Assembly: GCA_029204225.1 (NCBI GenBank)
Contig: CM055114.1
Location: 14,126,684-14,190,683 of the forward strand
Origin: Diphasiastrum complanatum
Taxonomy: Eukaryota; Streptophyta; Lycopodiopsida; Lycopodiales; Lycopodiaceae
Direction of reading: 5' to 3'
Length of the DNA: 64,000 bases
The position numbers and the translations under genes were made by a program. The notes below the pieces were generated by a model. That model saw only the letters and a list, made by a program, of their open reading frames with translations. It was not told where the DNA came from and did not search any database. Each line of letters starts with the position of its first letter. Positions within the stretch are counted from its first letter, which is position 1. Positions 15,935 through 52,037 of this stretch are shown here, piece after piece.

Positions 15935-16061
15935 CTAAACCCCCAACCCAAGCATGCAGACCCTAAACCCTAAACTCACACACACACCATGTCTCGTACA
16001 CACACACACACACACACAAATCACCACACACACACATACAGATGCATACAAAAATCAACTA

Positions 16062-16096
<35 letters not shown>

Positions 16097-19000: not shown

Positions 19001-22000
19001 AACTACTTCCACAGGAGTATCCACAGTGTTGCACACATGCTGCATCCCCTCTTCCTCTCTCCGACACAAATCGCAGACAGGGAGCTCGAGGCCGATTGGC
19101 TTCAGTACATTCACAGGGTGGGTCCACACATAGGTTTGGATCCTATCAGGCTCATGGAGGAGCTCGCTGCATTTCGTTTTGGCATGGGCACATTCGGCCA
19201 CCCGGCTGCTCAGGATCCAGAGAGGAGGCAGCTACCCATTACTTGGTGGACCATGTTCGGTAGCACATACCCATCTATACAGCGTCTTGCACTGCGTGTC
19301 CTTTCTCAGGTATGCATCTCATTTTATCCTCCATTGTTGTGTTTCGTTGAAGACAATGTGCTGAAGTAGTTCAATGCACGCACCACAGGATTGTGCTGCC
19401 TCCGTGTGTGAGCGTAATTGGAGCACATGGGCACTCATTCACACGAGGAGAAGAAACCGGTTGTCAGTGAGTCAGTTGGAGCGGTTGGTGTTCTATAGCA
19501 CCAACGCACGTCGACCATTACGAGCGCATTGCAGGTGATAAGCTATTCTCCCATAGCATGTTGGTTGACTCTTGGTACGTTGGTTTCATTTCTTGATAAA
19601 GTTGTCTCTTTGACATGCAAATTTTAAACCTTGCAGACGAAGATATCTGATTTGGAGCGCCAGGTTGACTTGCCTACGGACAGCACCCATCCCATGCCTG
19701 CAGATGACCTGGGCACACAGTTGATGGCAGAGAGAGAGAGGGAGCTTGCCGAGATGAGAGAGAGAGAGCTTGGGCTTGAGCACAGAGAGCCCCATTGTAC
19801 GAGGCAGATGAGCCAGTGTCAGAGGATGGTCAGGATGAGGATGAGCCTATTCGGGTTGTGTTCGCCAGATCAGAGCGGGATGAGGCATATGATACAGGTG
19901 TTGGGCACACGCCTAGAGCAGGGGTCATAGGTGCATCACGTGGTAGAGGTGGGACACATGCCACAAATTATACCGGGAGACGGGCAGGGCACACAGGGGG
20001 GGGCAGTGGCATACCTTCTTATGTTGATATGATGGAGGAGGCTCTTGATAGGGGGCAGACTGATTTGGGTTTACCTTCCGCAGCTGCTTGGATGCGTGCA
20101 TCACAGAGCCATAGGCATTTCTATGACAGCACACCAGAGGAGTCACCAGATGACTTTGATTGTACCGGTTGGGAGGCCATGCCGGGTCCGCATGGTGCAC
20201 AGGATAAGGCACATGATGTTCCCGAGGATGGTGCTCATGATGAGTCCCAGAGCCCAGACCATTTGTATTCGGATGCCCAGCTGGACGACTTGATTGCAGA
20301 CTTGGATTCAGAGGCCCAGCAGATGCCGAGCGTCAGGGCACCCCCATCCTCTCTAGCCAGCATGCCCTACACAGAGTCTCAGCCAGAGCAGCTACACGAG
20401 GTGCCTGCAGTTCCTCCAGTTCCTCAGAGGCTGTATGTGCGCCGCACAGCACCTCCAGTGCCACCGATACCGTTGAGGCCTGCAGCCCCTTCATCGCCAT
20501 CCACTTTTGCAGCAGCAGGTCTCCATGGCAGGTCACCATCTGTGCCTAGATCTTCTCTTGCAGCACCCACATCTACAGACGCTCCTCCAATGGCAGCACC
20601 CACGACACATCCTCCTCCATTGGCAGCACCCACGACACCGACTCCTCCTTTGGCAGCACCCACAGCACATCCTCCTCCTTTGGCAGCACCCAGGATGTAC
20701 CAGTACCGTCCACCACAGCGCCCCTTTTAGTACTTATCGCCGCTGTACTTGCCTCCTACAAGGACGGCCCCTCCACATCTAGTTCCTCCACCAGCAGCAG
20801 GCCCACGGGCACACACTCCCCGGACCTATCCTCCACTATCCGCTGCACAGGGACACCCATCTTTGGCTACTCTATCCTAGCCGGCTGCAGCTTGGGCTCA
20901 GCCTAGTCAGCCAGGTGATCTGCATGGGGGTGATGAGGCATTGACGGCTCCCCTCGTCCGCAAGAGGCCAGGAAGGCCCAAGGGTGCACCGAACAAAAAA
21001 GGCAGGGCACAGAAACTGCCAGGGAAGAGAGGACGACCTCGTAGGGCTCCAGTTGCTAGTAGAGGTGCTGTATTACAGCCAGTTGCAGCAGGTGTTGTTG
21101 GTTTAGCCTGCTTGGGGGCTGATGCGGAGGCAGATTGGGAGGATGAGGATGACGACTCTTCTCCCTCAGACACACAGCCCATGCCAGTACCAGACAGACA
21201 TAGATATCAGTTGCGAGAGTCAGCTCGGGGCCCTGAGTTATCTCCGGAGCATTCATCTGAGTTTGAGACAGAGCATTGATTGTAGCTCCGTCATTTTATT
21301 TTTAGCAGTTTGATATCATGTTCCATGTTTGGCGACCAGATGGTCAAACACTGTATTCAGACCATTTTTCATATTATATTTAGTGTTGGACGTATTCTAT
21401 TCACTACACAATGTGTATTTGTCAATTTGTAATTGTGATGTTCTACTTGTAGTTTTACTTCAAATGGTGTGTGCGTGTTTTCAATTAGTTTTCAGTACAG
21501 AGTTTGAGAGCATATGCAGAACACAGAAATACAACCCCCCTGATAGCATTTCATAATCACATACATCAGATTGCAATACACAAGCCACGCATTGCACAAA
21601 AAACACACCGTACATTAATTCAACAGATGTATCAAAACTACAATACGTATTCCCGCCGCATACGGCTGGGGCTGTTCTTTACACCATGCCAAACACTAAA
21701 TACTGCCTCATCTACTGATGAACATTAAATAACAACAGTCAGCCACATACGGCTAGACCCCATCTATGCTAAACATTTCTACGGATCCTCCACAAACTCC
21801 TCGCCCTCATCAGGTGCATTGTTCTGTCGCTCTCGCTCTGCCTCCCGGTTAGCCCGAGCTGCCTCCTAGTCAGCCCGACGGCGGGCAGCCCTTTCCCTGA
21901 CCATGATGAGCTGCCGTCGTGTGAAGTTCATTCCGATCTGCTCATCCAAATCCAGCTCGACAGCGGGGGCGGGGATTTGCAGCTATGGGTGTCTCTGCCG

Positions 22001-32695: not shown

Positions 32696-33278
32696 ACTCC
32701 TTCTCCAGCATCACCTGATCTTCAATTGATCCGACTTATCTTTCCACATCACTCGACTGACATCTATCAGTTTGGATTGTGCCACTAAAAGTTGAATTTT
32801 CGTTGAGCAAAACCAACCCACTTCGATTTTTTTCTGTTTTTGCAGACAAATTTAAACGCTTACCAGCAGATGGTCAAGCAAATCACTTTTTTCTGATTTT
32901 TTTCTCTGGGAAAAAATTGGGTTTTGTGAAGATTTTGAAAGAGAGCATAGACAGGCTACAAATAGCAATCCCATAGATAAAATAAATTTATGCAATGGTT
33001 GAGATTGGGGGTACAGAATTCCCATTTGGAAGTTGGCCACGTGTTAGCCTGCTGTCACTTGGACGTTTTTAGATGGCTAATCATGAGGAGGTGGATAAAA
33101 TTCAAATGATCTCGTTTTTTCCCTCCACTCCAAAAGAGTGCTTTTGCATGTCAAACCCCTCACCTAGGCTATGTGATGTCAAGCAACACCACGAGTTGCT
33201 CAACACCACCGGTTGCCCAATGGGTGAAGGGGTTTACAGATTTTCCAGAAATGAGCAGTTGGAGCCGTTCTCTTAGCT

Positions 33279-33351
33279 GGGTGATGTCAGTTGACGCACA
33301 GAACGGGTCATCTGAAAGGGTGATGTCAGCTGACGCACAGAACGGGTCACC
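33279..33351 (-). promoter_or_regulatory. Tandem TGACG-containing repeat upstream of XRCC4
   Basis: A 34-bp unit, GGGTGATGTCAG(T/C)TGACGCAC plus AGAACGGGTCA, occurs twice, at 33279-33312 and 33318-33351, with 32 of 34 bases equal. It lies 580-660 bases before the XRCC4 start codon. Each unit has TGACG and TGACATCA-like bZIP-type half sites. A promoter role is an inference. 33352-34490 shows no gene. Confidence 0.4.
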
Positions 33352-34493
33352 GGGTGGACATGGAAAGAATCCCTTAGCCTTCACATGTACCCATTACTCA
33401 TTCTTAATGCCATCTCTTCCTCAAAGCACAGTGCTCGTTCTCACATATTCACTTCGCATATTATCACCAGTTCGCATATCACCACCCAGGTTCCATGCAT
33501 TTCGCCCATGGTGGACGTTCATTCTCTCTCGTCTATCTTATAACAACTAATTATATGATGTTCTCATGCCTAAAAAATTAAATTTGTGTGTCTCCCAAAA
33601 AATAGGGGCCCTGCTATAGTAAAGATATCGGGGTAGGCATGGCATTACCCCAAGTCATCATTTTTTATGTTAAGTCAGTTGGCCACATGATGTCCTTACT
33701 TTCCTATGTAGAAGGGGATATGGCCTTCCTATTTTTCCTTTGCAACGAGTGTTCAATTTTTTGACAAATAGACATGCCTTACTGGTGTGTGTGAAAATAT
33801 CCTAATCATAAAAGAAATTGATCTGCGTGTGTTTAGTGCTTTACTTTTAAAATTTTATTTATTATAATATGTTAAAATTTATGAATATACTATTTCAATG
33901 ACATGTCTTAGAATGTGTTTAAAATCCTTTTGAGTCGTTTTGAGAAGAAGACCCAACATATCAAGAAAATGTAGATGTTTCGCAACTTTGGTTATTTGGT
34001 GGTTCATGTGTAAGAGTGCAACGTGCCAAAAGATGTTGTTTTGGTCATGAGCTTATCAAATCAATGACTAAATGAATCCTTTTTTTGTGCTCCATGTTTT
34101 TTATATTGTTTTGATACCAAGATGGGGACGACTATTGACATACTTAGCACAACCAATATCCTCACCAAAACTCACAAAATGCCCTACATTTTCTCTCATC
34201 TACTCCATCTAGAAGTATGCTTGAATTTAAGAATTGGTTACCTCTTGTGGTAGAAATGTTTAAAACATGATGTGAAGATAATCACCAATATGTAGAGTTT
34301 TTCCCTATGTTGACTCTTCATCATCTCCATGATGAAGATCTTTGCCTCCAACACATGAACTTTGACTATGGATTGCCATTCCAAAATGAACTTGCAGGAT
34401 CGTGACACAGTGAAGAACCTTGTGGAGATCCATCATTTCCGTCGTGCAACCATATGGGAGATTATCTCTATCTAACATGAATAAACATTTCAA

Positions 34494-34783
34494 AAGATGA
34501 AATATAAGGAAAAACATCCCACACATTGACCATTTCTTGATACATCGAGACCTTCTTTGCTTGCATTTTCTGTTGTGCTTTTTTTGGTCCTACTAAATGA
34601 ATCATTCCAACTTGGATCTAAAAGTTCAATACAAAATTCAAGACTAGACATGTTACCTCCATGGCTAAGCATGTCTCCATCAAAGCAAACCAGATCGTCA
34701 CCATTCTTGGGAGTGTTATCAATAACATCATTAGTGTCATTTGTTTGCTTATCACAGCCATTAGTTGTCTCACTATGCCTCAT
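34494..34783 (-). CDS. Unrecognised acidic Ser/Asn-rich frame (possible exon fragment)
   Basis: 97 codons, hydrophilic (DNDVIDNTPKNGDDLVCFDG-type composition), without a known domain. It is cut on its upstream side by the LTR copy at 34808. It could be a fragment of a host exon; the evidence is composition only. Confidence 0.2.
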
Positions 34784-34807
34784 AAAGCATTCACTTGCAG
34801 AACAACT

Positions 34808-35884
34808 CTCCCATTACAATCAGCTGCTAGATGCAAAAACAGTCTAATAGAAAGCTTATGCTAAATATAATCACAGCTTTAAGTGTTCTAATTGCCCAAC
34901 ATGATCTTAAAAATTAGTTCATACTCACAAAAATGAGAGTACAGTCCACTGAAGAGATTGGAAATGGTTTGTGTGTGGTATTACTGAAAAATGAATTCAA
35001 TGTGAAGTTTGGTTCTGATATAGATGGAAAGAGCAGTATGATATTGCGAGTTCCTCAGGCGTCAAAGACAGCCATCGTCTGATTAGAAGCGAAGGAGTCG
35101 TAGACGTCCGTGTTCTGATCAAAGTGAGTAAACAAGTGCAATCAAACAATGATAAAGTGCATTCAATCACAACAAGCATTCATCTACGTTATACACAGAT
35201 AGAAAAGCATGGTGCTGCTATATTATACTGAAGCACAATAAAATAACAATTACAACCAGAATGGCGGCGTAACTGGGAGGCTCAAAATCATTCATCTCAT
35301 GGATGGAGCGTCTCAAGTAATCTGTGCTGGGATGATCTATTTATAGATTGTATCCATGTATTAACTACATTAAATGTTTGTCACCTAATTAGGTAAGCAG
35401 TTGTAATTAGAAGTATATGGCTTTTGTGACAACTGTACATAGTGTATACTGTCAACGAATTAGGAATGCTGACGTGTGGACAAGGACGTCGAAAATTCTC
35501 TCACTTCGCATTTCACGTGAAGTGGTTTTCTTTCACTTCACAAATTTCTAAAAATGGCTGGGGGCGTCCTTCGTTAAAAAATAGCCGACCTTTGCTTTTT
35601 CTCTCTCTTCGGGTTTTTTGCGAAAAAGTCAAAGATGCCCTTAAGCAGTTCAAGTCTTGAAGTAGATGACCTTCGGGAATTTTCTCTCTCTTCGCGAACA
35701 TTTTGCGAATAAGCCGAAGATGCCCTAAAATGGTTGAACTTTGAACTGTGCCTAAGTGTCACATTTCGGGAAAATGAGACGAAATTGTTGCAAAATAGTT
35801 TAAACTGTTGAACTATGCTAGTTTCGCATTTCGGGAAAATGCGAAAAAGCCAACACTATGGCGAACATAGTTCATTTCTGCAGT
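34808..35884 (-). repeat. LTR plus 5' leader, copy 1
   Basis: This 1077-bp segment is repeated at 58735-59800 over its whole length, in the same orientation. On the minus strand it has CTATAAATAG (about 35336-35345), T-rich R/U5-like sequence, and then a leader containing GATCAGAACACGGACGTCTA. Its U3-like part has internal repeats of TTTTCTCTCTCTTCG and CGAAAAAGCC(A/G)AAG. It looks like an LTR and leader of an otherwise missing retroelement. Confidence 0.6.
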
Positions 35885-36027
35885 GATATTGCGTGTACTT
35901 CTTCCATCTCCCTACTTGGTGATTGTTTATGGTGAATGCTTGATGTTGCATTTCTGATTGTTGACAGAACGATTCGCGAAACTTTTCGCAAAACTCGAAT
36001 TATTTTTGTTTGAGAATAATTTGTGTT

Positions 36028-36350
36028 GGAACAATCAAGCTCTGAAACACAATGAAACGAAACGAGACGAAATCTAGATGAAAACGAAACGAAATGAAGC
36101 GAAGCGAAGCTTAAATGAGCTCTAACATTGATTCATGCTGAAAGCATAGAGATCGCAAAACGACACGAAACGAAACGAAGCACAAGCATTCGTGAAATGA
36201 TCAATCAGGCTCTGTAATGAGAGGAGACAAGACGAAACGAAACAAGACGAAATGAAATAAAAGTTAGGTGAGCTCTGTAATTGATTTACCCTTATGGCCA
36301 AGTGATCGCAAAGTGAAGCGAAGCACGAAGCGAAAGGATTCGCGAACAAG
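36028..36350. repeat. Two-copy repeat rich in GAAACGAAACGA
   Basis: Two units of about 150 bp both start CAATCA(A/G)GCTCTG, contain GAAACGAAAC(G/A)AGACGAAAT and GTGAGCTCT-like words, and end GATTCGCGAA or ATTCGTGAA. 36351-37396 holds no recognised feature. Confidence 0.6.
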
Positions 36351-37396
36351 ATCAGTTCATCAGGAATTCAGATATGATCGATGGTCACTATTGGCTATAT
36401 CATTCTTACAATCCTTTAGAGTGTAGACAGACACTACTGATCTATGTTAACACATTAATATAGCATTCAACAAGATCAAACCAAAGTGCGGAATTAAATG
36501 AGCAAGTGAATCAAACACACAAATAGTAGCAGACAAATTACATTCAAGATCATACAATCATTTAGAATAATAATGTGCACAACAGCTACAATATCATCTA
36601 TTGACTTTCTGATTCTTCAAGCATTGCATGACAGATACACTACATTTCTCTTCTTTTTTGTGCCTTCACGAAAGACGTTGCCTTAGAAACCATTTTTAAG
36701 GCACCTTTGCCTTTTTAATTTGTGGAGAATTTAATTTATCTAGTGGATGTTATTTTACTATAGTTTATGGTCTGCAGATGCTTGAGTACAGTCCTTCATT
36801 TAATTGGATCTCCAGTTATCATAGGAGACAGACAAGTCTATTAAGATGAATGAATGTTATTTTCTTGCATTCGGTGCCAGAAATAGAAGCATTTAACTCA
36901 AAAGAGTATCTGGGATACTCAGAGTTGAGTTTTAATCATTCTATATCTTAATGATTCTCCTAGGGATTCTAATTGAATGAATTATCATATCTTAGAATTT
37001 GGATTCTAAGGATATTTGTACTTGAAAGCTTATGAATTATCTGTCAGAGTTGTGGATAATTTCATACTGTAATTATGATTATTTTATTATTTCTTTAGCT
37101 TTAATCTCTTAAGTTAGGTTATTTCACCCAGTGTTTCATGTAAGTGCTTTACGTGAAGGTGATGTTATTAACTTGTGGTGAATGTAACCCAGATGGAAAA
37201 GTTATCGCTTAGTGTACTTTTCAAACCTGACTTGTACTCCAGTGCAGAAATTATCTCTGAGTACTTGTTTGTTGTGAAAGTTAGACTAAGGATAATGATT
37301 TTCTAGGTGGACATTGAGAAGTTAAAAGAACTATTTCTGTTATTCTTTCCTGTTTAGAGAGCTTCTAAGGATAGAAGCAGTTTAAGGAGGGAAGAA

Positions 37397-37640
37397 TGTT
37401 ATGTCCATGGCCACTAAGTAGGATTCAGTATACTCCTAGCCTTAGATACAAGGTACTCCTATGAACCAATTTGTTAGTTATGCCACGTCATATTGGATGT
37501 GACCCAAAAAAAACTAATATCCTTGTGAGGCCCAGAACACACTAAATGGAGTGTAGACAAGGTATGAGACAGTGTATGCATGTGTAGAGTTATACTTTTA
37601 TCTCGAAAGCTGCCGAGTCACTTGGGAAGCTTACAGTCTG
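37397..37640 (+). repeat. LTR start after a polypurine tract
   Basis: TTTAAGGAGGGAAGAA is followed by TGTTATGTCCATGGCC. This is the junction of a retroelement's 3' end with its LTR, related to the TGTTATGGAC LTRs in XRCC4 intron 3. The right end was not found. Confidence 0.4.
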
Positions 37641-37990
37641 AACAAGATGGACTTGTTTTTTATCTTTTTTATCTTTTTTAATGGACATTGTCTAACTGTG
37701 TGACCCTTGCCCATACACACAAAACACAAACATTCTTGTTTGGCTTTCTCAAAATCTTCTGGTTTTAAGGGCTGTATGAGTGATGGACGTTTCTGAGGAG
37801 CTTCATTCTTAACTTTATCTTCTTTCTTTCATTTTAAAAATTTCTATATAAATTGAAAATCATTCTGAGTAGGCTGCTCAGAAAAGGATTGTTGTTTCAC
37901 CTTCTTCCTACCCACTGAATCATCATAGATTTGAGCATATCTGAGAGCTTTCTCTAAGGTAGTAGGCGAGTTTCTCTAGAGCTCTACTTT
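37641..37990 (-). pseudogene. Retrotransposon gag fragment with CCHC zinc knuckle
   Basis: Minus-strand translation near 37740-37690 gives CFVCMGKGHTVRQC, a perfect Cx2Cx4Hx4C nucleocapsid knuckle. It is preceded by a Lys/Glu-rich region (LKPEDFEKAKQE). The rest of gag is decayed. It is on the strand opposite the pol relic that follows. Confidence 0.65.
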
Positions 37991-38184
37991 ATAGACTGGC
38001 AAAATTTGAATATGCCAGGACTTCAGGAAGCTGAATGCTACCACAAGGAAAGATCACCATTTACCCTTCATTAATTCTATCTTAGATCAGTTGTTGGTCA
38101 AGAATGATATAGTTTCTGTGATGGTTTCTCTAGTTACAATCAGGTTGGAGTAAGGAAGGAGGATCGTTCAAAGACCACGTTTAC

Positions 38185-40315
38185 TACAGACTGAGGCTCT
38201 TATGCCTACAACAAAATTCCCTTTGGTCCTTGCAACGCATTAACAACCTTTCAAAGAATCATGATATCCATTTTTGCTGCCTTCCTAAGAACTTTTCTTG
38301 AAATTTTCATTGATGATTTCTGTGTTTACAGTGATGTAAAAACACATATACAGAAACTGAAACTTATATTGCAACGAGCTTATAAAAAACCTCCTGATAC
38401 CAACAAATCTACGTGAACTAAGAGCCTTCTTAGGACATGTCGGTTACTATCAAATATTCATCGAGAATCATGCCTCTAATGTTGCTGCTCTTACAAGAAA
38501 CAATTGGAATACTTGTGGACGAAAGAACAGTAGAATGCGTTCGAAGAACTTAAGCAGAAGTTGATCAATGCTCCTATTCTGAGACCACCAAACTGGGCTA
38601 TTCTATTTCATAGCTATGTTGATGTTTCTACATTCGCTATTGGCATCTGTCTGAGCCAGAAGGACGATAAGAAGAAAGACCATCCCATATACTATGCAAG
38701 TCGACAACTAAGTGTCTCGGAGAAAAATTATTCGTCCATAGAAAGGGAAGCACTCGGAATGATTTTTACTGTTAAGAAATTTTGGCATTATTTGCTGGGA
38801 TATGCTTTCATTTTCCATGTTGATCACTATGCTCTAAAGTATCTGGTGAATAAACCAGATTTATCAAGAAGAATTGCTTGATGGATTCTACTTTTGCAAG
38901 AATTCACTTATCAAGCGGAACTTCGCCAAGGAAAATATCATACGAATGCTAATTATCTATCGCGACTCGGCATGGAAAAAGTTGAAAATCCAATTAATGA
39001 TGATTTTTCAGATGAAAATTTATTCGAAATCTCATCTACGACTTTTTTATATTTTGATATCATTACCTATTTTAAGGATCAGATATATCTTGATGGATAT
39101 GATTTGGAGAAGAAGACAGTTTTTCAATATAAGGTAGCACCTTATACTATTATTAACAATGTCCTATACAAGCTGGTGTTGATCATCAACTAAGAAGATG
39201 TCTCGAAACCGAAGATATTAAGAAGGTTGTACAAGCCTTACATTCGGAGGATGCTAGCAGACACTTTGCTTTAAAGAACATTGTTAGTAAAATATTGACT
39301 GTCAAGTATTGGTGGCCAACTATGTTCAAGGATGTACCGAATTATATATGATCATGTGATCCATGCCAGAGATCTGGAAAGCCAACAAAAACAATGAATT
39401 GGTCGTTGACACCAATCCTACCTCTTGCACCATTTGAAAAGCGGGGGATTGACTTTGTCGGTCCAATCAAGCCCGTGACTCGACACACTAAGTGTCGTTA
39501 TATTTTGGTTGCGACAGATTATGCCACAAAGAACGTAGAAGCAGACGCGACGAAATGAAACAATGCAAAAACTATCACATCATTCTTATTTAAATCTATA
39601 ATCACAAGATATGGTTGTCCTCTCGAATTGGTTAGTGACCATGGTACACATTTTTTAAATGACACAATACAGCTGCTGACAACGTATTTTCTGATTAAAC
39701 ACAAAAAGACAACCCCTTATAATCCAAAAGCAAATGGGTTAACTGAGAGAGCAAATGGAATACTTTGCAAGATCTTGAAAAAGATTACTATTGCACATGC
39801 GACTGATTGGGATAAAAAATTACCTTAGTTTTTCTGGGCTTATCAAAACACAAAGAAGATCACGACGAAGCAAACACCATATTTTCTTACTTATGGTATG
39901 CATCCTATCTTACCTATTGAATTTGAGGTGCCAACTTTTCATATACAAGCCCAACGAACAGATGCAGAAAATATTAATGAAAGGTTGACGAATATTGAAA
40001 AACTATTTGAAGCTCGTTCAAATTCACAAAAGCTTATGGAGCAAATCCAAGAACAATGAAAGAAAAAGTATGATAGTCGTATTAGGAAAAGTGATCTTAA
40101 AGCTGATGACTTTGCGCTAATCTATGATAGTCGACATCAGAAGTTCCCTGGAAAGCTTCATATGAGATGGCTCGGACCTTATAAAGTTATCGAGGTGTTC
40201 GTGAATGGTTCTATTCAACTCCAATCACTTGATTGCGACTATTACCGACTCGAATTAACGGGTCCAAGCTCAAGAAATATTATCTTTGATTAAAACATTC
40301 TAGTCAATAAGAATC
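38185..40315 (+). pseudogene. Ty3/gypsy pol (RT, RNase H, integrase), decayed
   Basis: RT begins with IPFGPCNALTTFQRIMISIF and the catalytic box FIDDF (about 38308). RNase H follows with YASRQLSVSEKNYSSIEREA and FHVDHYALKYLVN (38560-38880), then a tether with QGKYHTNANYLSRL. Integrase follows with CDPCQRSGKP (zinc finger), VATDYATK, LVSDHGTHFLNDT and TERANG, so the three catalytic acidic residues (D, D, E) are still present. The C-terminal KFPGKLHMRWLGPYKVIEVF ends the polyprotein near 40250. Stops and shifts occur at about ten places. It is one of the better preserved integrases in the window. Confidence 0.85.
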
Positions 40316-40379
40316 ATTTGATGTCTCATTTGCAAAACACAAAGGGTTATGCCTTCAGAAACCATTCTCATTCCCAAAA

Positions 40380-40645
40380 TCTTTCAAGAGTTCTTTCTAG
40401 GATCTTTCTAGTATCTTTCTAGGATCTTTCTAGTATCTTTCAAGAATCTTTCTAGGCCCATTCCAAAAACCTTTTGAAAATCTTTCTAGGATCTTTCTTG
40501 AATATTTCTAGTCTCATTCAAGAATATTTCTGGACTCAGTTGAGAATCTTTTCTAGGATCATTCGCGAATCTTTCTATGCATACCGTCGAGAATTTTCCT
40601 AGTATTTTTCTAGAATCTTTTCCAGCATTTTCTAGAATTTCCAGA
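40380..40645. repeat. Degenerate repeats of TTTCTAGGATC
   Basis: About fifteen variants of TCTTTCTAG(G/T)ATC and CAAGAATCTTTC lie directly after the gypsy pol. Confidence 0.7.
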
Positions 40646-40649
40646 CAAC

Positions 40650-41187
40650 AATTGATTCTTTAAAACAACAAGTGCTGAAAGCGAATAAGGTTAATGTCGC
40701 TATCCAAAAACTTCTACAGGAGGAGTGAGCAACACGAATAAAGGTCAAGACAACACTAGGTCTGTGCAGCAACGTAGGTACTATCATGGTAGACCTTTCG
40801 AAGCTGAACCAGCTCCAAAGCCAAATGCTAGACAATTTTCGAGCAGAATTTTTGCAGATGAGAAGGCATTAGTCGAAGAAGAGTTGGCAGAGCTGAATGA
40901 GCTATCTATCGAGACCAATCAGACATGCAATGGGCCGGATGCACATGAGGAACATTCATAGGCCCTGTTCAGAATTGACAATCTAACATAGCAACTCAAC
41001 ATCATTCCTGTTTTTTCGGGAGTTGCTGACCACCCCGAATATTTGGAGGCAGTAGCGAAGATTGACAAACTCAAACGAGAGGTGACCGATCTCAAACAGC
41101 AACTCGAAGATCTGAAGCTAGCTATAGAACTCCAATCACAAGACATGGCAATAGTAGATACCCACCAGGCTAAACGACCACGTTGAA
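40650..41187 (+). pseudogene. Extra coiled-coil reading frame downstream of gypsy pol
   Basis: From 40725 one frame runs to the TGA at 41187 with only two TAG interruptions (40959, about 41007). It encodes RRYYHGRPFEAEPAPKPNAR, then ADEKALVEEELAELNELSIE, then a clear heptad region KIDKLKREVTDLKQQLEDLK and a basic end AKRPR. An out-of-frame upstream piece (SLKQQVLKANKVNVAIQKLL) may belong to it. No known domain. It lies after pol, where some plant gypsy lineages carry additional ORFs. Confidence 0.45.
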
Positions 41188-41429
41188 ACCAGTCGAAGGT
41201 ATGTGTTGAAAGATTCAATGCATTTGTTGATCGATTTTGGAAGTAGTTGCTAGGAGAAAGAGAGACGAACACGAACGAAAAATGAAACACGAATAAGAAA
41301 CGAACTCGAACAGAAAATGTTCGTGCGCAACGAAACAAGCTCTCCCTAAGTATGACTACGCCTACCAGAACGAACAGAATGGTGGTGATGGAAATCAGGG
41401 TCATTCTTGATTACGTAGCCAAACTATAA

Positions 41430-42170
41430 TTGAACATAAGAAGAATAATCTATCATGAACAACAAGACAAATTGTTTGTCTCGAAAGATTTGTGAAGAGA
41501 GAGACTAGGCTCAACTGACAATCAATCACGAACGATTCGCAAAGACAAGACTAAGTATTAGTCACGTTAATTACCAAAATGAGCAACTAGAAAAATTAGA
41601 TAGAATGAATGATAATAAGCATAGCAACATTGGCACAGATCTGAATGCAGAAGAAAGAACTGTAATCAGATTAAGTACATCAGATATACATGTCAAAGAT
41701 GTAGTAGAGCACAAGACAATAGCGGGAGAAACCGCGTGCTCTACGAAACTTATTTCAATCTGTAAAAAGGAATGAAAAACTTAATACCAACAATAAAGAA
41801 TCAATGCATTAAGCATCTATTATTTTCTATATCTCTTTGATGAGCTTCTGATGATAACATACACACATGAGCTTATCGTCTCATGCTCTTCCTCATTGTC
41901 GTTGTCAATGAGTACTCAATTGGTATCCAATATATATATATACAGAAATGCTACAACTGTGTAGATGAAAAAAGTACAGAGTGTATGTGCTGTCAGTAAG
42001 AGATCGTGGGTGGCTGCTATCGCTGTTCAGTCAGTTAGCGCAGCTGCATGGGCGTGAAAGGAGTGACGTCAACCTTAGTGCAACTGCATGAGCATAAAGA
42101 GTAAATATGCAGCATGAATGGAGGCAGATTAAAAATGGGATTTAGGAGAGTGGAGGAAATAAATCCAACA
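41430..42170 (-). repeat. Candidate copia LTR (minus strand)
   Basis: Read on the minus strand, the copia RNase H at 42625-42185 ends, AAGGGAGGA follows, and the sequence TGTTGGATTTATTTCC begins at 42170. TATA-like repeats lie at about 41929-41942. The far end is not determined. Confidence 0.4.
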
Positions 42171-42625
42171 TCCTCCCTTAATCTAGATCTGTGAATACCT
42201 TGATCTTCAAACTAAGCAATGCACAAAATTTGTTGTGTGCATTAATATTGAGTGCTTTCGTAAATATGTCTGCAACCATGTTCTGCGTTCTACAGTACGT
42301 CAAGCTCACCTCTTTGTCAAGAACCTTGCCCCTGATATAGTGATATCTGATTTCAATGTGCTTACTCCTAGAGTGAAATCTTGGGTTGGCTGATAGGGGA
42401 ATAACACTCTGATTATCACAGAATAAAATTGTAGGGCTGTACTAATGCAGATTGACATCTGACAATAAATTTCTCAACCAAAACGCTTTCTTAATAGATT
42501 GAGAAGCAGCAATGTATTCTGCTTTTGTAGAAGAAAGTGTGATAGAGGTTTGCTTACGACTGTTCCACGAAATTGGACCGCCATTGAAGAATAATGTAAA
42601 GCTTGTTGATAGTAATATTGTCATT
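42171..42625 (-). pseudogene. Ty1/copia RNase H 3' end
   Basis: Minus-strand translation reads NGGPISWNSRKQTSITLSST, KAEYIAASQSIKKAFWLRNL, FCDNQSVIPLSANPRFHSRS and VADIFTKAL. These are the last blocks of a copia polyprotein, with one stop. It is joined head to head to a plus-strand copia piece at about 42610. Confidence 0.8.
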
Positions 42626-43553
42626 CTTCTAATCTATGTTGATGAAATTATTCTTTGTGGAAGTTGTATCAAGCTAGTTTAAGAAACTAAGCTAGCCCTT
42701 GGAAGTGAGTTTAAAATGCAAGATCTAGGAGAGATCCATTACATACTAGGCCTAGAGATTGAACTTCATGAAGATTATGTTTTTATATGTCAATCTAGAT
42801 ATGCTCTTTCTATGGTGAAAAAATTCCATATGGAAAATTCTAAGAGCATAGATACTCTAATGGAGAAAATTGTAAAAGATCCTAATAAAGGTGATGAAAG
42901 ATCCTTTGAGGACATCACACTTTTTAGGAGTCTTGTAGACTCCTTGATTTGGCTTACCAGTACTAGGCCCGATCTAAGTTTTTGTGTGCACAAATTAAGT
43001 CAATTTATGCAAGATCCTAAGATCCATCATTGGAAGATGGCCAAGAGGATTTTAAGATATATATCTTCATCTTGTGATTATGGTCTACTTTATAAAAGTG
43101 AAGATTTATCTATTGTTGCCTGCACGGATTCAGACTTTGCAAGTGATAAGATGGATCAAAAGTCTATTAGTGCATACACTATACATCTTGGAGGCAATCT
43201 AATACCTTGGCTTTCCAAAAAGCAAGATACTATATTTCTTTCTTCATGTGAGACTAAGTATAAAGCACTCACCACAACTACCAAAGAGGTGCTTTGGATC
43301 AAGAGATTATTATTGGAGCTAAAGTGCATCAAGGAGGATGATCTACCAATGATCAAGTGTGACAATATCTTGGCCCAAGCTCTTGCCAATAATCCCATAT
43401 TTCATGCTTTGGAGCATGTCAACACATCCTCTTAATATTGCCGATCTACTCACCAAGTCTTTGAGCAAAAGTGCCTTCATCAAGCATAGATCTAATCTTG
43501 GAGTTATATCAAGATCAATGCCTAATCTTCAATAGATAACTTTTTAGGAGGAG
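42626..43553 (+). pseudogene. Ty1/copia RT (C-terminal half) and RNase H
   Basis: IYVDEIILCG (a changed YVDD), then QDLGEIHYILGLEIELHEDY, TRPDLSFCVHKLSQFMQDP, KRILRYISSSCDYGLLYK, CTDSDFASDKMDQKSISAYT and SSCETKYKALTTTTKEVLWI. The frame is open for 239 codons, then degraded to the polypurine tract TTTTTAGGAGGAG at 43541. The 5' part of the element is missing. The second Asp of YVDD is Glu, which would abolish polymerase activity. Confidence 0.85.
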
Positions 43554-44290
43554 TGTGAAAAATGCAAAAAGGTTATCTATGTTAGTTATAGGGGTCTTAC
43601 ACTTTTTGCGTCAAGCATCTTAGTGTAGGATGTTGATAGGGCCAAAATTGGCATAGATGGCAAATTGACCAATTCCACATGTAATGCCTCTATTGAGCCA
43701 AAGTAGTGTAGGAGATGAAACTTGAGCTAAATAGAGAGTGTTGACAAGTGTAGTAATTTAGTTTGATGAAGTTCAAGAGGTCCAATAGGATTTAGAGGTG
43801 GAACCATCAATGGTCCCAATAGGATTTTAGATATGCTTGAGAATGGTCCAATAGAATCAAGAGGTGAATGAATCAATGGTCCAATATGATTAAGAGGCTA
43901 GTAAATGTGTGGTCCAATCATGTTTGAGCTTGGATTAGCTCGTGGATCTACTAGTGTCATTGTACTTTTCATTTTGAACTAAGTAATTTGGAGATCTCGT
44001 GTGATTTTGAGACTAAGTGTTTTCTAGCATTCTCTCTCTACTTGAGAGCTATTGGTTGCATTCTCTCTCTACCCGAGAGCAAGCTATTTTTTTACTTAGT
44101 TTTTTATTTGGAACACTTTCCACACGTGTGTATCTACTTTGGAAGTGAGTTAATGCATGTAGTAGTGTGGTTTTGCCATTGAGTTGAAGATAGATCTTGA
44201 ATCTCAATCTAATCTTGATCATTGTGCATCCACACACCTTAGGAGATCATAATCACATGTGGTGGGCACTCCACACATGTGAAATTCACA
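43554..44290 (+). repeat. 3' LTR of the copia element
   Basis: 737 bp from TGTGAAAAATGC, directly after the polypurine tract, to ...GAAATTCACA. It contains CACACGTGTG and CACATGTG palindromes. Related LTR pieces lie at 10340-10733 and near 5480. It abuts the ParB-methyltransferase pseudogene, into which the element inserted. Confidence 0.75.
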
Positions 44291-46632
44291 AGTGGTAGCA
44301 TCAATATTATTGGATCAAATAGAGTTTTTGGCTGCAGGTGTACTATTCACATGGACATGCATAGTTTACAAACCCAAAAACAATTGTCCCAAGAATATCC
44401 ACATATTGTTTCTTTCTGTAATATTAGCGCCATTGCATTTGCTGGCCTGACAGGAGAAGAATCTAAATTGCTTGCTTGGGATCATAATATTGATCAAGAT
44501 TACATGATGAAGATGACTGCCATACAAAAAAGAATCTGATTTTTTCACAAAGAATATTTAAGAGTCTCCAAAGCTAGTGATGTAAATCAGTTGGAGCTCA
44601 AGGCATTTTGTGCTCAAGAGACATGCTTGTCGTTTGATTCAAAGAATCCTACGCAGAGCCTTACGAAATATGACAATCTTTTTCAACTTGCTTTTCGTAG
44701 TGGCCAGGTAAATTTTTGTTGTTATGCTTGTCATGGAATGCTCTGGTCAACATTTATGGCATGCTCTTTATACATTGTTACATTGGACTGAAATATTGAA
44801 ATGTATTTTAATATTAATTAAATTGATTATCAATAATTTATTTTAGGTATGGGCCCTTGTTGACAAAATTTTTGGCAAGTGGGAAAGTTTCCGAATAAAA
44901 GTTCAACTTGCTCAAGGCGCCTCAAAATCAAAAAAGAAAATTGCCTCCACTCAAACTCTGAAGCCCATCCCTACAGAAATGGGAATATCAAGTGGAAGAA
45001 TATACAAGTAATTAGCTCTTCAAAATTAATTATAAGCGTTCTTTCTAGAGTTGTAGATGGTTAACTCTCTCTTGCAGAGATGAGGAAAGACTTATAGAGG
45101 TACTATTCATAATTCAAATATTTGTTTTCATTTCATTTTTTTTTCTAAAATGATTTTCACAATTTTGAAGGATTTGTAACCATTGCACTTTCTTAAATGC
45201 AAGCATAAATTGCTTATGAAAGTTCAAGAAGCCCTTGTGACAGGGTTAAATTGTCAGGATTTTGAAAAGTGTTAGAGGCTTTATCCTCCGAGTAGCTAAA
45301 ACGAGGCTTTGACTCCATTTTTTATATTGTTTAGAGATATGGTATTTAATTATGTTTTAGACTTTATATCTCCTATGCTAAGCATAGGTTCTTGTTTTTC
45401 AGTCCCCCAAAGATAAGAAAAATAAAGTCCCTCCAGAGCAATTCAAGAGATATATTCTGAAGGCGAAAGCAGAAAAAAGGGATAGACAGAGACTAGCACG
45501 GAATGAGACCATTCCGAAGGAGGATCCATTAGAGACCTACCTCCCCAAAAGTGTCGATGATCAAGCATGCTTCTACATAGTTGAGGAGGGTGATTGTAGA
45601 GAGATTTCTAAATTTTTAAAGAAAAGGCCCTACACACTCTGCATTGCCGATATACCATATGGATTTCAAATGAAGGAATCATTAAATGATGATTCTCCTT
45701 TCAAATTCACTAAAATCCATAGTTTCATGCAAGGTTTTCTTGAAGTCACAACGTCTCCTATTTGGAGAGTTGTTATTTTTCATTCTTCTTGGTAATCAGC
45801 TTCAGTCTAGAAAGATTCATTGAGTTTTTGTAATGCGGGAATAAGGAATGTTGTGTGGTAATTTTTTAACTTCACAAATTTTTAATTCGTACTTTAACTC
45901 AAAGTTATTATTTTGAATTTAGTATAAACAATCATTTTAACTTAAAACTTTTATTTATTTATTTCAATTTGAAGATTCCATGTCGGGTACAAGCCCAATG
46001 TCAGTCGGGTGGAGTGCGACTTTGCAGTGAAATAAAATACATAACCATTGGTTATTATTCTCTAGATGGCAAACACTCCATGCTTCACTACAACACCTCC
46101 GGGCTGACAAGTTTTGGAAATTTGTTCCAGTATCTAGCTATGACAAAAAAAACTCAAAAATTCAATGATGGGTTCCGTGGCTTGTCCCTACCAAAAGCCA
46201 CAACAATTAATCAATTATCTAATTGATATTTTTTCTCACCCAGCTGATTGGGTTTTAGATTTATTTAGTGGTAGTGGCACTACCAGCGCATGTGTTGTTC
46301 AGAAAAATAGATATGTTGCTGCAATAGATTTAGATTCTAATTTAGTTGAATTTGTAAAAATGAGAATGAAATCTCTTTTAGTTTTGCCAGATGAATTGGC
46401 TGAGGTAGAAAAGAATTTAGATAATGAAAACTCAATAATTCCCTTGTCTAAGAAACCACAACCTCTTGCTAATGGAAAAGTGGGTGATACAGGGGAGGTT
46501 GTTGATGTTCTAGTTCAAGACTACAATGTGATAATTGTCAATGGAGTTTTGGAAGAGGTGCCACTTGACTCTATTGTGGCTCCTCTAGAAAAAGAGAAGG
46601 ATGTAAATGACATGCATGATTTTTGGATGTAA
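44291..46632 (+). pseudogene. ParB-like domain plus beta-class amino DNA methyltransferase, intron-containing pseudogene
   Basis: Five reconstructed coding segments, 44291-44707, 44847-45007, 45078-45099 (22 nt), 45171-45270 and 45403-45860, are followed by 45975-46632; most have good GT..AG borders. The first part resembles ParB/sulfiredoxin-fold domains (SLQTQKQLSQEYPHIVSF, AGLTGEESKLLAWDHNIDQD). The methyltransferase has motif IV IADIPYGFQ at about 45643, then VVIFHSSW, then QKPQQLINYLIDIFSHPADW and motif I VLDLFSGSGTTSACVV with IDLD (46190-46335). This IV-then-I order is that of bacterial beta-class N6-adenine/N4-cytosine methyltransferases. In-frame stops (TGA 44537, TAA 45177, TAA 45793, TAG 45807 and others) and a one-base shift near 46168 show it is dead. 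The 5' end is cut by the copia LTR. Motif IV reads DIPY, so the target base cannot be assigned. Confidence 0.7.
46165..46632 (+). pseudogene. Last exon of the methyltransferase: SAM-binding motif I and C-terminal tail
   Basis: Open for 155 codons. The SAM-binding sequence LDLFSGSGTTSACVVQKNR and the acidic loop IDLDSN are intact. A 90-residue acidic tail without known domain follows and ends NDMHDFWM. It could be mistaken for a short intact gene, but its first residues continue the frame-shifted exon at 45975. Confidence 0.7.
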
Positions 46633-46717
46633 TGAATTCTCTCTTATTTTAAAGAAATATTGTGTTTATATTTCTTAAAACATTGTGTGGTTAAAGAGCA
46701 TGAATAATTTTAGAGTA

Positions 46718-47530
46718 TGTTAGAAACTTATGTTTGTTACAAACAAGAACACAGATCAATGACTCAATTCCTCAGATAGAGACTGCCATCTCGGATGTAT
46801 ACATACAATTCTATCAATGATCGTGAAAGACTATACCAAATGTAAACGTTATTCGAACAGAAAGTGTTTATGGCAGACGAATAAGATAGTTTTAAGACAG
46901 TTATTTAGAACATATTTACAATATACATCAAACGAATGTAATGCACTAAAGCGACTGTCTGACCAGAGAGTAATTTATGAAATGCAATAGAGATTGCTAG
47001 TAGACTCAAGATCACTCACACTTAACAGTGCGGAGAACAAAGATAAGAGAGAATAATTCTCAACACTCTACTCACTCTTCAATCTCTCACAACTACATAA
47101 ACTCTTTCTCTCTCGATGATTGAGACTGAAGCGTGTAGTCTATATATGTTCTACGAAGCGAACAAACACACCTCTAAAGACTATAGGTGCGTCACTCCCT
47201 CGGAAAGGTCTAGTTAATAATTAGGTTGAATGTATGTTCAATTATACTATGAGAGGTATATTTAACTAAGAGTTTAAATTACTCTAGTTTAATATGTCGA
47301 TTCATATTTAGTCGTTTCGCGTAGATGACCTCATAAAGGTTATCCAAGGCAGTGTTTCTCTTCTGGAGGTCTTGTCCTTAAATACAAGACAGATCTTTAG
47401 GAGTTATATTCTCGAATAATGATATAGGCCTCTTAATGATTTATATTTATGCAGCTCATATCTTCATATTCGAGTATATCATGCCATATTTAGGTTGATA
47501 TTTGTTATTTAGCAAATTCGTGGCATCACA
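46718..47530 (-). repeat. LTR of a minus-strand retrotransposon
   Basis: Starts TGTTAGAAAC and ends GGCATCACA on the plus strand. Directly to its right lies TATCCCCCTCCTC, a polypurine tract on the minus strand. A minus-strand TATA-like CATATATAG lies at about 47141-47149. About 813 bp. 47531-48206 would be the 3' internal end of that element; no gene is recognisable there. Confidence 0.6.
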
Positions 47531-48206
47531 TATCCCCCTCCTCAAATGTGAAACGTCCTCGTGAACATATAATCTTCATTTCGAGGATCATTCGCGATTC
47601 GTTCTGTTCTTCATATATTCGTTAAGGTCAAAAGATATTTCTTCATATGTTCCTTCCTTTAAATATTTCATTTGAGATTTTTCTTCTGTTTGGTTGAATA
47701 TATGACTTGCTGTTTCTTGAAGTGAGTAGATTGATTTGAGGTGATATTTGAAATATTTATTGGAACAGAAATCAAACTTCAAAACACCCTCAAAACTTCA
47801 AAGATTAGAATTCAGCATCACATAGAAACATCACCATTACATAGGCAAGAATGAATGTTTATGATGGATTCAATTATGCATGTAATCTTTGGACTAACTC
47901 CAAATTTTGTTGAGCCTCGAACAACATAAATGCTTCCTTTGATTGTGTATATCGGTCAACTAGTAGGTTGTCGAATTTTTTGAGCTTAACAGGGACAATG
48001 CTCCATCGAATAGCTCCGGAGTTAATTGCTCATCTTCGTCGAAATCACTTCAAATTGTGATTTCTTTACAAAAATGGGCTGAAAATTTTATAAAAGAACT
48101 TTTAACATATAGATTCTGTACAAAAAATAAAGTTTTTGCTGCAAAAGTGTCAAACTATCAGAAAGAATATGTACAATAGGGTTTGTAACAAATTGACTGT
48201 CTCGGA

Positions 48207-48545
48207 ATTCAGATCTACAGAGATAGAGCAAAGCGACTAATTTACATCACTCAACAAAGGTATCTTCACAATGTTCTTAATAGATACAATTTAATGAATT
48301 GTAAATTAGCTCACTCACCAATGGATCCAGGCCTGCACTTGTCAAAGGATCAAATTCCCCAGACTAAGCAGGAAGAGGAGCAGATGAGAGAGTATCTTTA
48401 TCGATCGATACTTGGATCTCTCATGTACACAATGGTCTGTACAAGACCAGATATCTCTTTTGCAGTAAGCTCACTAAACCAATATATGGCCAATCCTGGT
48501 ATTACCCATTGGAAGGCTCTCATAAGAGTCATGAGATATATTTGA
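48207..48545 (+). pseudogene. Ty1/copia RT/RNase H junction fragment
   Basis: ITQQRYLHNVLNRYNLMNCK, then AHSPMDPGLHLSKDQ and YRSILGSLMYTMVCTRPDIS, then FAVSSLNQYM and THWKALIRVMRYI. About 110 residues of the copia segment after YVDD, with no flanking domains on the same strand. Confidence 0.8.
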
Positions 48546-48559
48546 GCTACCATGGACCA

Positions 48560-51480
48560 GTGCATCTGCTATGTCACTAAGAAAAAGATCCTAGTGAGAC
48601 AAGAAAAGAGTTGAGTCTTGAATACCATGAGCTTGGTGCTTGGTTTAGTCCATAAAGACTTTTGAAGAGCATGGCACACTTTGGACTCATCCTTGATGAA
48701 TCCTTGAGATCGTTCCATATAAATATCCTCCTCAATATAACCATTTAAAAAAGCATTGGATACATCTAATTGGAACACCTTCCATTTGAAAAAACAATCA
48801 AGAGAAACAAGAATTCTTATTGTCACCATCTTTGCAACAGGTGCAAAGGTCTCCTCATAGTCAAGGCCATGGATTTGAGCAAATCCTTTGGCACATAATC
48901 TTGCCTAGAACTTGTTGATGATGCCATCATGATTGTATTTGATTCGAAAAACCCACTTGCAACCAATCACATGCTTTTTGGATGGTGGATCCACAAGCTC
49001 CCAAGTATTTTTGGTGATCAATGCATCATACTCTTGCTTCATGGCATCATACCACTTCTTGGTATTGAGTGCCTCTTGTACATTCTTTGCTCTTCATGAG
49101 AAACAAAAAAAGCATAATTAGTGGAATCAAGATCCACTTGCTTGCCTTTATCAACATATGAGAGCCTCTTAGGCTCGGATCTATCTCTCATAGATCTTCT
49201 TGGTGAAAAAATTCGAGGAGACTCCTCTTCAATTCTTGACCCCATCACATCATAATTGTCTTCAATAGCAATAGTTGGTGATGGATCTATAGATGGCTTA
49301 TCTCGGCCCCTTCAAATGATGAATGTTGATAAAAATAACATCTCTACTTTAAATCACTTGAGAAGTAGAGAGAACAAAGACTCTAGAAGCCTTTTTGGTG
49401 GATGAGTATCCAACCACGATCCCTTTGCATGAAGTGGGATCATCCTTCTTCCTTGTTTCCAAGGGAATATGAGCAAAGCATATGCATCCAAAAACTCTAA
49501 GGTGATCAACATTAGGCTTCTTCAAATATAAGATCTCATATGGTGACTTTCACCCAAGAGCTATATGTGGGAGTCTATTGCAAAGATAACTTGCACAACT
49601 TATGGCTTCTCTCCAAAAGTATTTTGGCAAAGATGCCTTAATCTTCATGGCTTTTGCACATTCACATAAGGATCTATTATTTCTCTCGGCCACTCCATTT
49701 TGAGATGGAGAGTAGGCACAAGAGAACTCCCTTTTGATGCCTTCAAGCTCACAACAGCCATGGAATTTACTGGAGATATACTCTCCACCTCTATCACATA
49801 TAAAAGCTTTCATCTTGAATGAGAATTTCTTCTCAACATAAGCTTTGAAAATAAGGAAATGATCAAACACCATAGATTTAGAAGCAAGAAGGTATATCCA
49901 AGTGAATCTTGTGAAATCATCAATAAAAGTAACAAAACAAGTGGCTTCTCCCTTGTTTATAGATGTTGAGAAATGAACATCCGAGTGGATCAAATCCAAA
50001 AGATGCTTGCTCTTGATAGAAGATCTTGTAAATGGCTTCTTTTGAGATTTAGAAATAGCACAAGCCTCACATGACTTGATCTCCTTGGAAAATGACTTTG
50101 ACAAGCCAATAGCTTTGTATTCTTTGATCATAGAGAGCATGGATTTGTAATTGGGATGTCCCAACCTCCTATGCCATAACTCCTCCATAGATAGCTTGTT
50201 CACAAGAGCAACATTACAAGCATTTATACATTCTCTTGGATCTAGTTTATAGATACCTCCAAATCTAGATCCTAGTGCAAGTATCTCATCATTATTTTTG
50301 ATAGTACAAGTATCAACATTGAATTTCACATCAAGGTCATTATCAAGCAATTGGCCAACACTAATAAGATTAAGTTGTAAGCTTAGGTACAAAAAAAACT
50401 TTTGTAAGAGAAAGAACTTTAGAAGATGCAAGCTTTGAGGGAATATTTCCAATTCCCTCAACTGGACATTCATAATCATTTGTAGTGTATATTGATTTCT
50501 TGGTTCCATCATAAGGTGCAATAGAAGAGAAAGAGTCCTTGGAGCTACACATATGTGAAGAAGCTCCACTATCAATATACCATAAACCATCCTTTTTGAA
50601 AGGAGAGGATGAGAAGCTAGAGACCATAAGAGATCCCTCTCCCATCACTTGCAATAGTGTCTTCCTTCTCATTGGTGATGTTGGCTTGCTTGAGTTGATT
50701 CTTCTTCTTGAAGCAATTGGTGGCATAATGGCCTTTCTTGTCACAATAAAAGCACTTGATCTTCTTCTTCTTGAGCTTAGATATAGAAGAACTCGCGGAG
50801 TCATCCTCCTCCTCATCTTTGTCTTTGGCTTTGTCCTTGCTTGAGGATTGTTGATATTGGCTCTTGCTTCTCCCTTTGTGCTTGTCCTTGACAAATAAAG
50901 CTTTGCCATCATTAGGATTGAGAGAAAGCATGTCCATCCTCAAGAGTTTGTACTCTTGTCTTGATTCTTCATAAATAAGCACACTTTGAAGGGCCTCCAA
51001 GCTTGGTAGCTCCTCCTTAATGGCATAGGATTGGACAAGGTTGACAAATTCGTTTATCAAGCCATTGAGAATGACTTGAACTAGCTCACTTTGATTGGTT
51101 GAATTACCAATGCATGTAAGCTCCCTATGAATATCCTTAACTCTATGCACTCTATGCTCCCTATGCACTCTCATCACTCTTTTGACTACTTTGAAAGATT
51201 TGATTTCTAAAAGTGAGAAGCCTAGAGGTGTTCTTAGCCTCATAGATATTCTTGAGACAATCCCAAGCTTCTTTGGCTGTAGTGCAAGTGCCTATCTCCC
51301 TCAATATCTCATTAGAGACATTCATCTTGATGTAGTGGAGAGTCATCCTAGCTCTCTTCTTGTATTTTTGTACCTCTTGAAGAACTTGTGGCTCTTCTTC
51401 AAGGCCACGAACAATGTCCATCACATCTTGAAGTATCAAGATGGACTCCATCCTCAGCTTTCATATTGAATAATTGGAAG
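48560..51480 (-). pseudogene. Ty1/copia gag-protease-integrase-RT, largely legible
   Basis: Read from 51480 leftward. Gag (UBN2-type helices, TAKEAWDCLKNIYEAKNTSR) comes first, then the knuckle CFYCDKKGHYATNC (about 50750). The protease has WYIDSGASSHMC (about 50560). GAG-pre-integrase and integrase follow (LWHRRLGHPN, CEAC, FIDDFTRFTWIYL, FICDRGGEYIS, VAERNNRSLCECAKAM); the H-H-C-C finger and D-D-E residues are kept, and the integrase frame is open for 346 codons. After a gap at about 49550 the RT follows (SRQDYVPKD region, then FQLDVSNAFLNGYIEEDIYM). RT breaks off near 48560 before YVDD, so no RNase H or 3' LTR remains. A few frame breaks separate gag, protease and integrase. Confidence 0.88.
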
Positions 51481-51978
51481 TGGACAATCTCTCACTTGGT
51501 TCCAACAAGAATGAACCCATTGAAGCCATCCAAAGTGAAATGATCTCAAATGATGAACAAAAAATGATGCTACACACTCACAATAGGATCCAAAAATGAT
51601 GTGCTATCACCTCCTATGCAAGGTCTTGGAACAAACTGTGAGATGATTCTCACTAGCTATACCAATCTCTCCAAAACTAGATCTACTTCATATCAAATGA
51701 TGGAGTATAGGCAAAGTTAGGATCAAACACTCGTATCACGCGTGAAATACACTAAGAAACCAAGTTTGACTCAAATACAATGACATTGCATGAAACAAAA
51801 TGGCTAAGATCTCAAAACAGTGCCTAGATCTCAAATAGATAAGATTGAATAGCATTCAACTGTGATTTGGGATCAAACAGGCAATCTCTTGACCAAACCA
51901 AATGTGTCCACCCACACTAATGTCCGCTTTCCAAAAATCTGTGGTTTGACATGCCACGAGTGTCATTGTATATTTTGA

Positions 51979-52037
51979 AGTGTTGATTCCGACATAGATC
52001 TTAGCTAAAATCTAAGATCTATGTCGGAATCAACACT
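51979..52037. repeat. Perfect 26-bp stem-loop
   Basis: Arms 51979-52004 and 52012-52037 (starting AGTGTTGATTCCGACATAG) are exact reverse complements around a 7-base loop, CTAAAAT. The function is unknown. The rest of 51481-52440 shows no gene. Confidence 0.85.

Follow-up and report, generated by a model that had tools for sequence, protein, structure and literature searches.

What is a bacterial-type amino DNA methyltransferase, split into exons and interrupted by stops, doing in the genome of a lycopod? The question is raised by one 64,000-nucleotide stretch of Diphasiastrum complanatum DNA (hereafter the window), in which the original prediction saw a dead plant gene joining a ParB-like domain to such an enzyme, and inferred a family acquired by horizontal transfer. 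Here, we follow this gene from its fragment in the window to the fuller copies elsewhere in the genome, and ask what kind of unit it belongs to.

A decayed methyltransferase gene

The enzymatic half of the gene is readily recognized. Exon 7 matches the Pfam family PF01555 (N6_N4_Mtase) at 48.4 bits, against a cut-off of 26.7 (E=1.5e-12), and resembles the solved beta-class enzymes RsrI (1.4e-6) and CcrM (2.9e-5). In translation, IADIPYGFQ lies at about 45643-45669 and VLDLFSGSGTTSACVV at about 46252-46299; VLDLFSGSGTT begins at 46252 and is immediately preceded by a CPYQKPQQ block that resembles HPTQKP. These blocks are motifs IV, I and X, and their order is that of the beta class, with DIPYGF (IV) ahead of VLDLFSGSGTT (I). 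The reading of a bacterial-type amino DNA methyltransferase with motif IV before motif I is thus upheld. The catalytic (D/N/S)-P-P-(Y/F/W) position reads DIPY instead of DPPY, and motif IV is altered in 5 of the 15 copies that cover it. Four of seven phage methyltransferases that we read carry DLPYG at this position and the other three DPPY, which places DIPYG within natural variation.

Comparison with other family copies places homology at window positions 44353-46688 on the plus strand. The interval first proposed (44291..46632) therefore does contain the gene, but its first 62 bases lie outside it. Homology begins with a remnant of exon 3 (44353..44707), which holds the latter half of the region called ParB-like (an unproven label), with its translated DHNIDQDY block and a TGA stop at 44537-44539. 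Intron 3 (44708..44846), whose GT and AG were compared across aligned copies, separates it from exon 4 (VWALVDK...; 44847..45105, right boundary approximate), which was placed by tblastn and tblastx to other copies and is disrupted in frame. Exon 5 (HKLFMKVQEALVT...; 45204..45347, both boundaries approximate) was located by tblastx of the L017 copy against the window. Exon 6 (45403..45857) carries the start of the methyltransferase domain, the catalytic motif IV (DIPYGF, 45649-45666) and the VVIFHSS strand, and is interrupted by a TAA stop at 45793-45795. The PF01555 exon, exon 7 (45987..46632, left boundary approximate), adds motifs X and I and a C-terminal tail closed by a TAA stop; in the window its frame is disrupted near 46143 and its acceptor AG is lost. 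Finally, 46633..46688 is the beginning of the element 3′ region described below, and the remaining ∼0.7 kb of that tail beyond 46688 was not found in the window. All of these features lie on the plus strand.

The TGA and TAA stops, the frame disruptions in exons 4 and 7 and the lost exon 7 acceptor make the window copy a pseudogene. As judged from its sequence, what the window preserves is the decayed remnant of a plant gene with multiple exons that encoded a predicted beta-class amino DNA methyltransferase. The copy had been described as dead and as cut by a copia long terminal repeat (LTR). The stops and the frame disruption agree with the first point; the cut is plausible, but a search of window 32000-52000 gave no pair of direct repeats (LTRs). 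To the left of the fragment lies a copia-type reading frame (42683-43435; RVT_2 at 29.4 bits, just under the cut-off of 31.6), followed by repeat DNA, and a second copia-like reverse transcriptase frame was called by eye to its right (48189-48545). Elsewhere, GC content is 52-55% in window 16000-22000 versus 34-46% in the remaining 2-kb bins, and Rfam gave no match anywhere in the window. CpG depletion was considered as a sign of 5mC silencing and set aside, as ratios of 0.36-0.63 in window bins and 0.60 in the element are not distinctive.

A high-copy family with common introns

The window gene has many relatives in the same genome. A PF01555 search of the 1.745-Gb genome, in which the window occupies C23:14126684-14190683, returned 1605 first-look candidates, and all 150 scored places matched above the cut-off; the same search with the ParB-like exon returned 2270 candidates, again with 150/150 scored places matching. 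The codon pattern of DIPYGFQ occurs at 317 genome places (150 forward, 167 reverse), compared with one for a reversed control pattern. Duplicate contigs cause some loci to appear more than once, and the totals should not be read as numbers of independent insertions. The methyltransferase gene belongs to a family of many copies and does not stand alone as an acquired gene, and the suspicion that the family is repeat-associated was well founded. Four same-strand PF01555 matches about 4.5 kb apart at C22:12333634-12347569 are probably an element-derived tandem array, and a looser PF01555 cluster lies at C24:5.14-5.57 Mb.

Twenty copies of 10 kb each were picked by hand, mostly for open frames, and are not a random sample. 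Together with the window they form 21 rows, of which seven are stop-free in the covered part of exons 6-7; among those seven, only L019 covers nearly all of it. The splice sites are widely retained. At intron 3 the donor GT is present in 9/10 aligned copies and the acceptor AG in 7/9, the acceptor before exon 6 is kept in 11/12 copies, and intron 6 retains its donor in 12/12 and its acceptor in 10/12 rows with letters; the window is among the two rows that lost it. These common GT/AG sites indicate that the gene is spliced and that the copies do not derive from its processed RNA. At the sites compared, they also bear out the predicted arrangement of several exons with plant-type splice sites. 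The whole-genome search for paralogues yielded numerous related plant copies with common introns; the outcome that would have refuted the prediction, intron-less contaminant hits and no plant relatives, did not arise. Bacterial contamination was rejected on these common introns and on the presence in the genome of SBP-box genes (62 matches among 92 scored candidates), a family known only from green plants.

Two divergent genes between inverted ends

The copies have defined limits. Self-comparison revealed a shared right end, and extending four copies upstream revealed a shared left end as well; beyond these ends the flanking sequences are unrelated. The element starts with AACACGATGAC and finishes with GTCATCATGTT, the reverse complement of AACATGATGAC; these imperfect inverted repeats agree at 10/11 bases over the two 11-bp ends. 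The left sequence AACACGATGAC is found in six of the seven elements read and the reverse complement of AACATGATGAC at the right in five of seven. When the right terminal 192 bases were searched against the genome, all of the best 40 of 929 first-look candidates reached the last query base. With the left terminal 260 bases, 38 of the best 40 of 1199 candidates reached base 1 and the other two base 2. The terminal searches establish repeated ends; the evidence that homology goes no further comes from the copies read directly.

Insertion left a target-site duplication of 4 bp, which is exact in five of the seven elements with both junctions read (TTAA, ATAT, GATG, TTCC and GTAG). The two inexact cases are C17, with 3/4 bases, and C1, with no match, which sits in a TC repeat. 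AcademX elements make duplications of 3-4 bp and PHIS elements of at most 4 bp (PMC10045372), so 4 bp alone names no superfamily. Five copies measure 8259, 8122, 8744, 8824 and 8545 bp; L017 spans 8796 bp by its alignment ends and L018 about 8.5 kb.

The left half of the element, on the minus strand, carries a second gene with the domain DUF7869 (PF25273; 93 bits, E=2.4e-26 in an L010 reading frame). A genome search for this domain gave 2954 first-look candidates, with 150/150 scored places matching, and no match was seen in 14 control genomes. The two genes lie together far more often than expected. In the best-scored lists, each of 150 listed places (one search had 154 matches), methyltransferase and DUF7869 form three pairs within 15 kb against 0.39 expected, two of them divergent. 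Methyltransferase and the element's putative transposase form 11 pairs within 25 kb against 0.64 expected, 11/11 divergent. The ParB-like exon and the transposase form 26 pairs within 12 kb against 0.31 expected (22 divergent, four otherwise), although duplicate contigs were kept in the lists and the 26 pairs are fewer independent events. At C15:37775253 and 37779438, and in four more pairs, DUF7869 and methyltransferase parts lie on the same strand, either as rearranged copies or as a second arrangement. The fuller copies are DNA elements of 8.1-8.8 kb with inverted ends, target duplications in most cases and two divergent genes.

This organization bears directly on whether we are dealing with a plain host gene family that came from bacteria or phages, expanded and then decayed, and is near transposons by chance. 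Such an origin would suit the prokaryotic-type PF01555 domain and has precedents in acquired 4mC enzymes, namely rotifer N4CMT (PMC8885841) and the enzyme of Marchantia (PMC12344493). It is already contradicted, however, by the common ends, the 4-bp duplications, lengths close to one another (8.1-8.8 kb) and the preferred association with a divergent partner gene, and we consider it very improbable. The methyltransferase is instead very likely an accessory gene of a transposon. The original prediction was right about the methyltransferase, the introns, the dead copy and the repeat family, but it missed that the gene is transposon cargo, with a divergent DUF7869 partner, inverted ends and target-site duplications.

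The DUF7869 protein is a probable DDE-like, cut-and-paste transposase of the element. This putative role follows from its position, the element ends and the duplications. Six DUF7869 rows, three of them pieced together, have D, DN..RENKN and GH blocks in common; a comparison with the PDB gave no meaningful link to any solved transposase. Many DUF7869 places were left without a link to a methyltransferase, so DUF7869 elements that lack the enzyme are likely to exist. The divergent subfamily represented by L009 (C2:41147000-41156999) keeps blocks of the transposase along with portions of exon 6 and exon 7; its DNA identity in the element's left half is about 68%, and no match to the ParB region occurs within its 10 kb.

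Selection on the enzyme

Purifying selection was assessed on 21 copies, including the window, aligned to the L017 exons, with 208 of 210 pairs binned by dS. Median dN/dS falls with age, from 0.632 (dS<0.15, 9 pairs) through 0.432 (41), 0.242 (27), 0.201 (14) and 0.166 (54) to 0.118 (dS>1.2, 63). A between-subfamily comparison of 13 copies with four, which left out L009, L020, L026 and L027 and in which exon coverage varies by copy, gave the lowest dN/dS, 0.068, in the exon with motif IV (39 pairs), 0.09 in the ParB-like exon (20), 0.149 in exon 7 (52), and 0.116 and 0.111 in the other two of five exons (14 pairs each). Out-of-frame controls on the same alignments gave 0.66-2.8. These ratios cover five exons and are only approximate, since dS saturates above 1 and the pairs share ancestry; the contrast with the out-of-frame controls is nonetheless clear. 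L017 and L009 could also be compared over five in-frame transposase blocks, with dN of 0.09-0.18. Saturation of dS affects three of these; the other two gave dN/dS of 0.046 and 0.189, versus 0.35-3.1 out of frame where computable.

These values allow us to weigh the idea that the methyltransferase is a captured passenger, copied without use. Most listed matches to the ParB-region exon contain stops, many copies are broken and young pairs have dN/dS of about 0.6, all as a passenger would. Between subfamilies, however, the five tested exons stand at 0.07-0.15 and in the right frame only, which indicates that the enzyme was maintained during element multiplication, and the splice sites are kept. 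A passenger is therefore improbable. Rather, copies decay once inserted, and the propagating lineage retains its methyltransferase and transposase genes.

The upstream ParB-like region

The region ahead of the methyltransferase is harder to name. On visual inspection, IVTPFVVLVD...FFVLGGIHNLQAxKQL...LTVEEAKLLAWDHN... can be aligned with the ParB boxes, and the DHNIDQDY block is present in the window's first exon. The claim that this exon is ParB nonetheless gained nothing from profile searches. In Pfam, 0/7 members matched PF02195 (ParB_N) at E<=10, where HMMER filters discard most weak matches, and a search of PDB profiles with the region found nothing. Two phage fusions, Javan316 and NatCom_20922, do match PF02195 and have true ParB_N domains. 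In hhalign comparisons with nine phage ParB domains, E-values of 0.32-0.37 were no better than those of controls (0.22-0.69); GGIHNLQAxK fell in register with GHTRYKAAK of phage ParB, at the GxxRxxAa box, likewise at control level. Of 50 shuffled local alignments one stood out, L023 versus L060 (z 3.7, reached by 0/200 shuffles), and a fold model of the window half-domain was uninformative (pLDDT 51). The ParB identity of the upstream exon is unproven, although the exon itself is under selection.

Origin and specificity of the enzyme

Relatives outside the genome are distant. An alignment of seven copies against viral_contigs and genome_contigs, and the window exon against viral_contigs, led to no confirmed relative; because such scans rely on short stretches of back-translated sequence, remote homologues can escape them. 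A tblastn search of phages matched 379 records, and among the 20 listed identity did not exceed 33%. Judged by gene length, five loci with phage methyltransferases are not ParB fusions: the genes of the four annotated ones (L051 is unannotated) have 241-308 codons including the stop. The domain type fits the proposed horizontal acquisition, but a donor lineage was not found in the viral and prokaryotic scans or the phage tblastn. The acquisition, if there was one, looks old.

The enzyme is likely to have DNA-methylating activity, as predicted from its domain and motifs. Its product is a separate matter. D-x-P-Y is the usual adenine form of the catalytic motif and favours adenine-N6 over cytosine-N4 in the plant enzyme. 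The rotifer N4CMT has SPPY (PMC8885841). Among the 20 listed phage matches, four are annotated as adenine enzymes and none as cytosine enzymes; the others are called methylases only or are unannotated. Within the same transposon, the enzyme might instead be an N4-cytosine (or even RNA) methyltransferase. PF01555 includes both 6mA and 4mC enzymes and specificity is unreadable from the domain (PMC8885841); set against the motif and the phage annotations, this alternative seems rather unlikely. Overall, 6mA is the reasonably likely product in preference to 4mC.

A transposon that may write its own marks

We judge it highly likely that the fragment in the window is a dead copy, truncated at its ends, of a plant DNA transposon with two genes, one of which encodes a DNA-methylating cargo enzyme that serves the element. 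The DUF7869 protein would cut and paste the element as a DDE-like transposase. The methyltransferase would methylate DNA, with adenine-N6 favoured, and aid transposition or escape from silencing; the upstream domain would perhaps aim it. Two uses of the methyl mark are the most likely. A mark on element DNA may regulate transposase binding and timing. In bacteria, Dam methylation times transposase action for Tn10. Alternatively, the mark may counter host cytosine methylation or silencing, comparable to the proposal for TET/JBP genes of fungal DNA transposons (PMC12730594).

On this evidence, the element may be a plant transposon able to set DNA marks of its own. Functional 6mA and 4mC in plant nuclear DNA are disputed. 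An amino-methyltransferase preserved by a transposon is a candidate 6mA/4mC writer, and predicts such marks in and around copies that still express the enzyme. For DUF7869, an unknown Pfam domain named in no paper of the openly licensed literature searched, the analysis provides a likely role as a transposase. More speculatively, DUF7869 might define a new eukaryotic cut-and-paste superfamily with 4-bp duplications, in one lineage of which, in this plant, a captured 6mA/4mC writer became essential to the life cycle; we hold this only tentatively and lean slightly against it. If true, the plant would house a second DNA-methylation system, borne by a transposon, that works against host 5mC or independently of it.

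Comparison with known systems

Several mobile elements encode epigenetic tools: retrotransposons with C5 DNA methyltransferases, DIRS elements with a methylase domain, and the VANC and TnpA anti-silencing proteins. They differ from the plant element in having another enzyme class or none, and in belonging to other element classes. No DNA transposon with an amino-methyltransferase is named in the titles and abstract openings listed by searches of openly licensed literature.

Enzymes of the same type are known from other settings. Fusions of ParB-CTPase domains to N6_N4 methyltransferases are described in phages (PMC12704722). Like the plant gene, such fusions (including L055 and L057) place an upstream domain before PF01555 and travel on mobile elements. 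Unlike them, the plant gene has an upstream domain that is not recognized as ParB, contains spliceosomal introns and is borne by a transposon; its enzyme shares 33% identity at best with the listed phage matches. The bdelloid rotifer N4CMT is likewise a bacterial-type N6_N4 methyltransferase in a eukaryotic genome. That enzyme combines an SPPY motif with a chromodomain and places 4mC on transposons (PMC8885841), whereas here the transposon itself bears a DIPY enzyme.

A parallel in logic comes from fungi, where DNA transposons encode TET/JBP dioxygenases that are proposed to counter host silencing (Kojima 2025, PMC12730594). In both cases a DNA-modification enzyme sits beside a transposase and is apparently kept for the fitness of the element. 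The fungal enzyme is a 5mC oxidase carried by several known superfamilies; the plant counterpart would be a writer of amino-group methylation in a DUF7869 element. With the plant element, the chromatin tools of DNA transposons would come to include a methyl writer beside the fungal TET/JBP oxidases.
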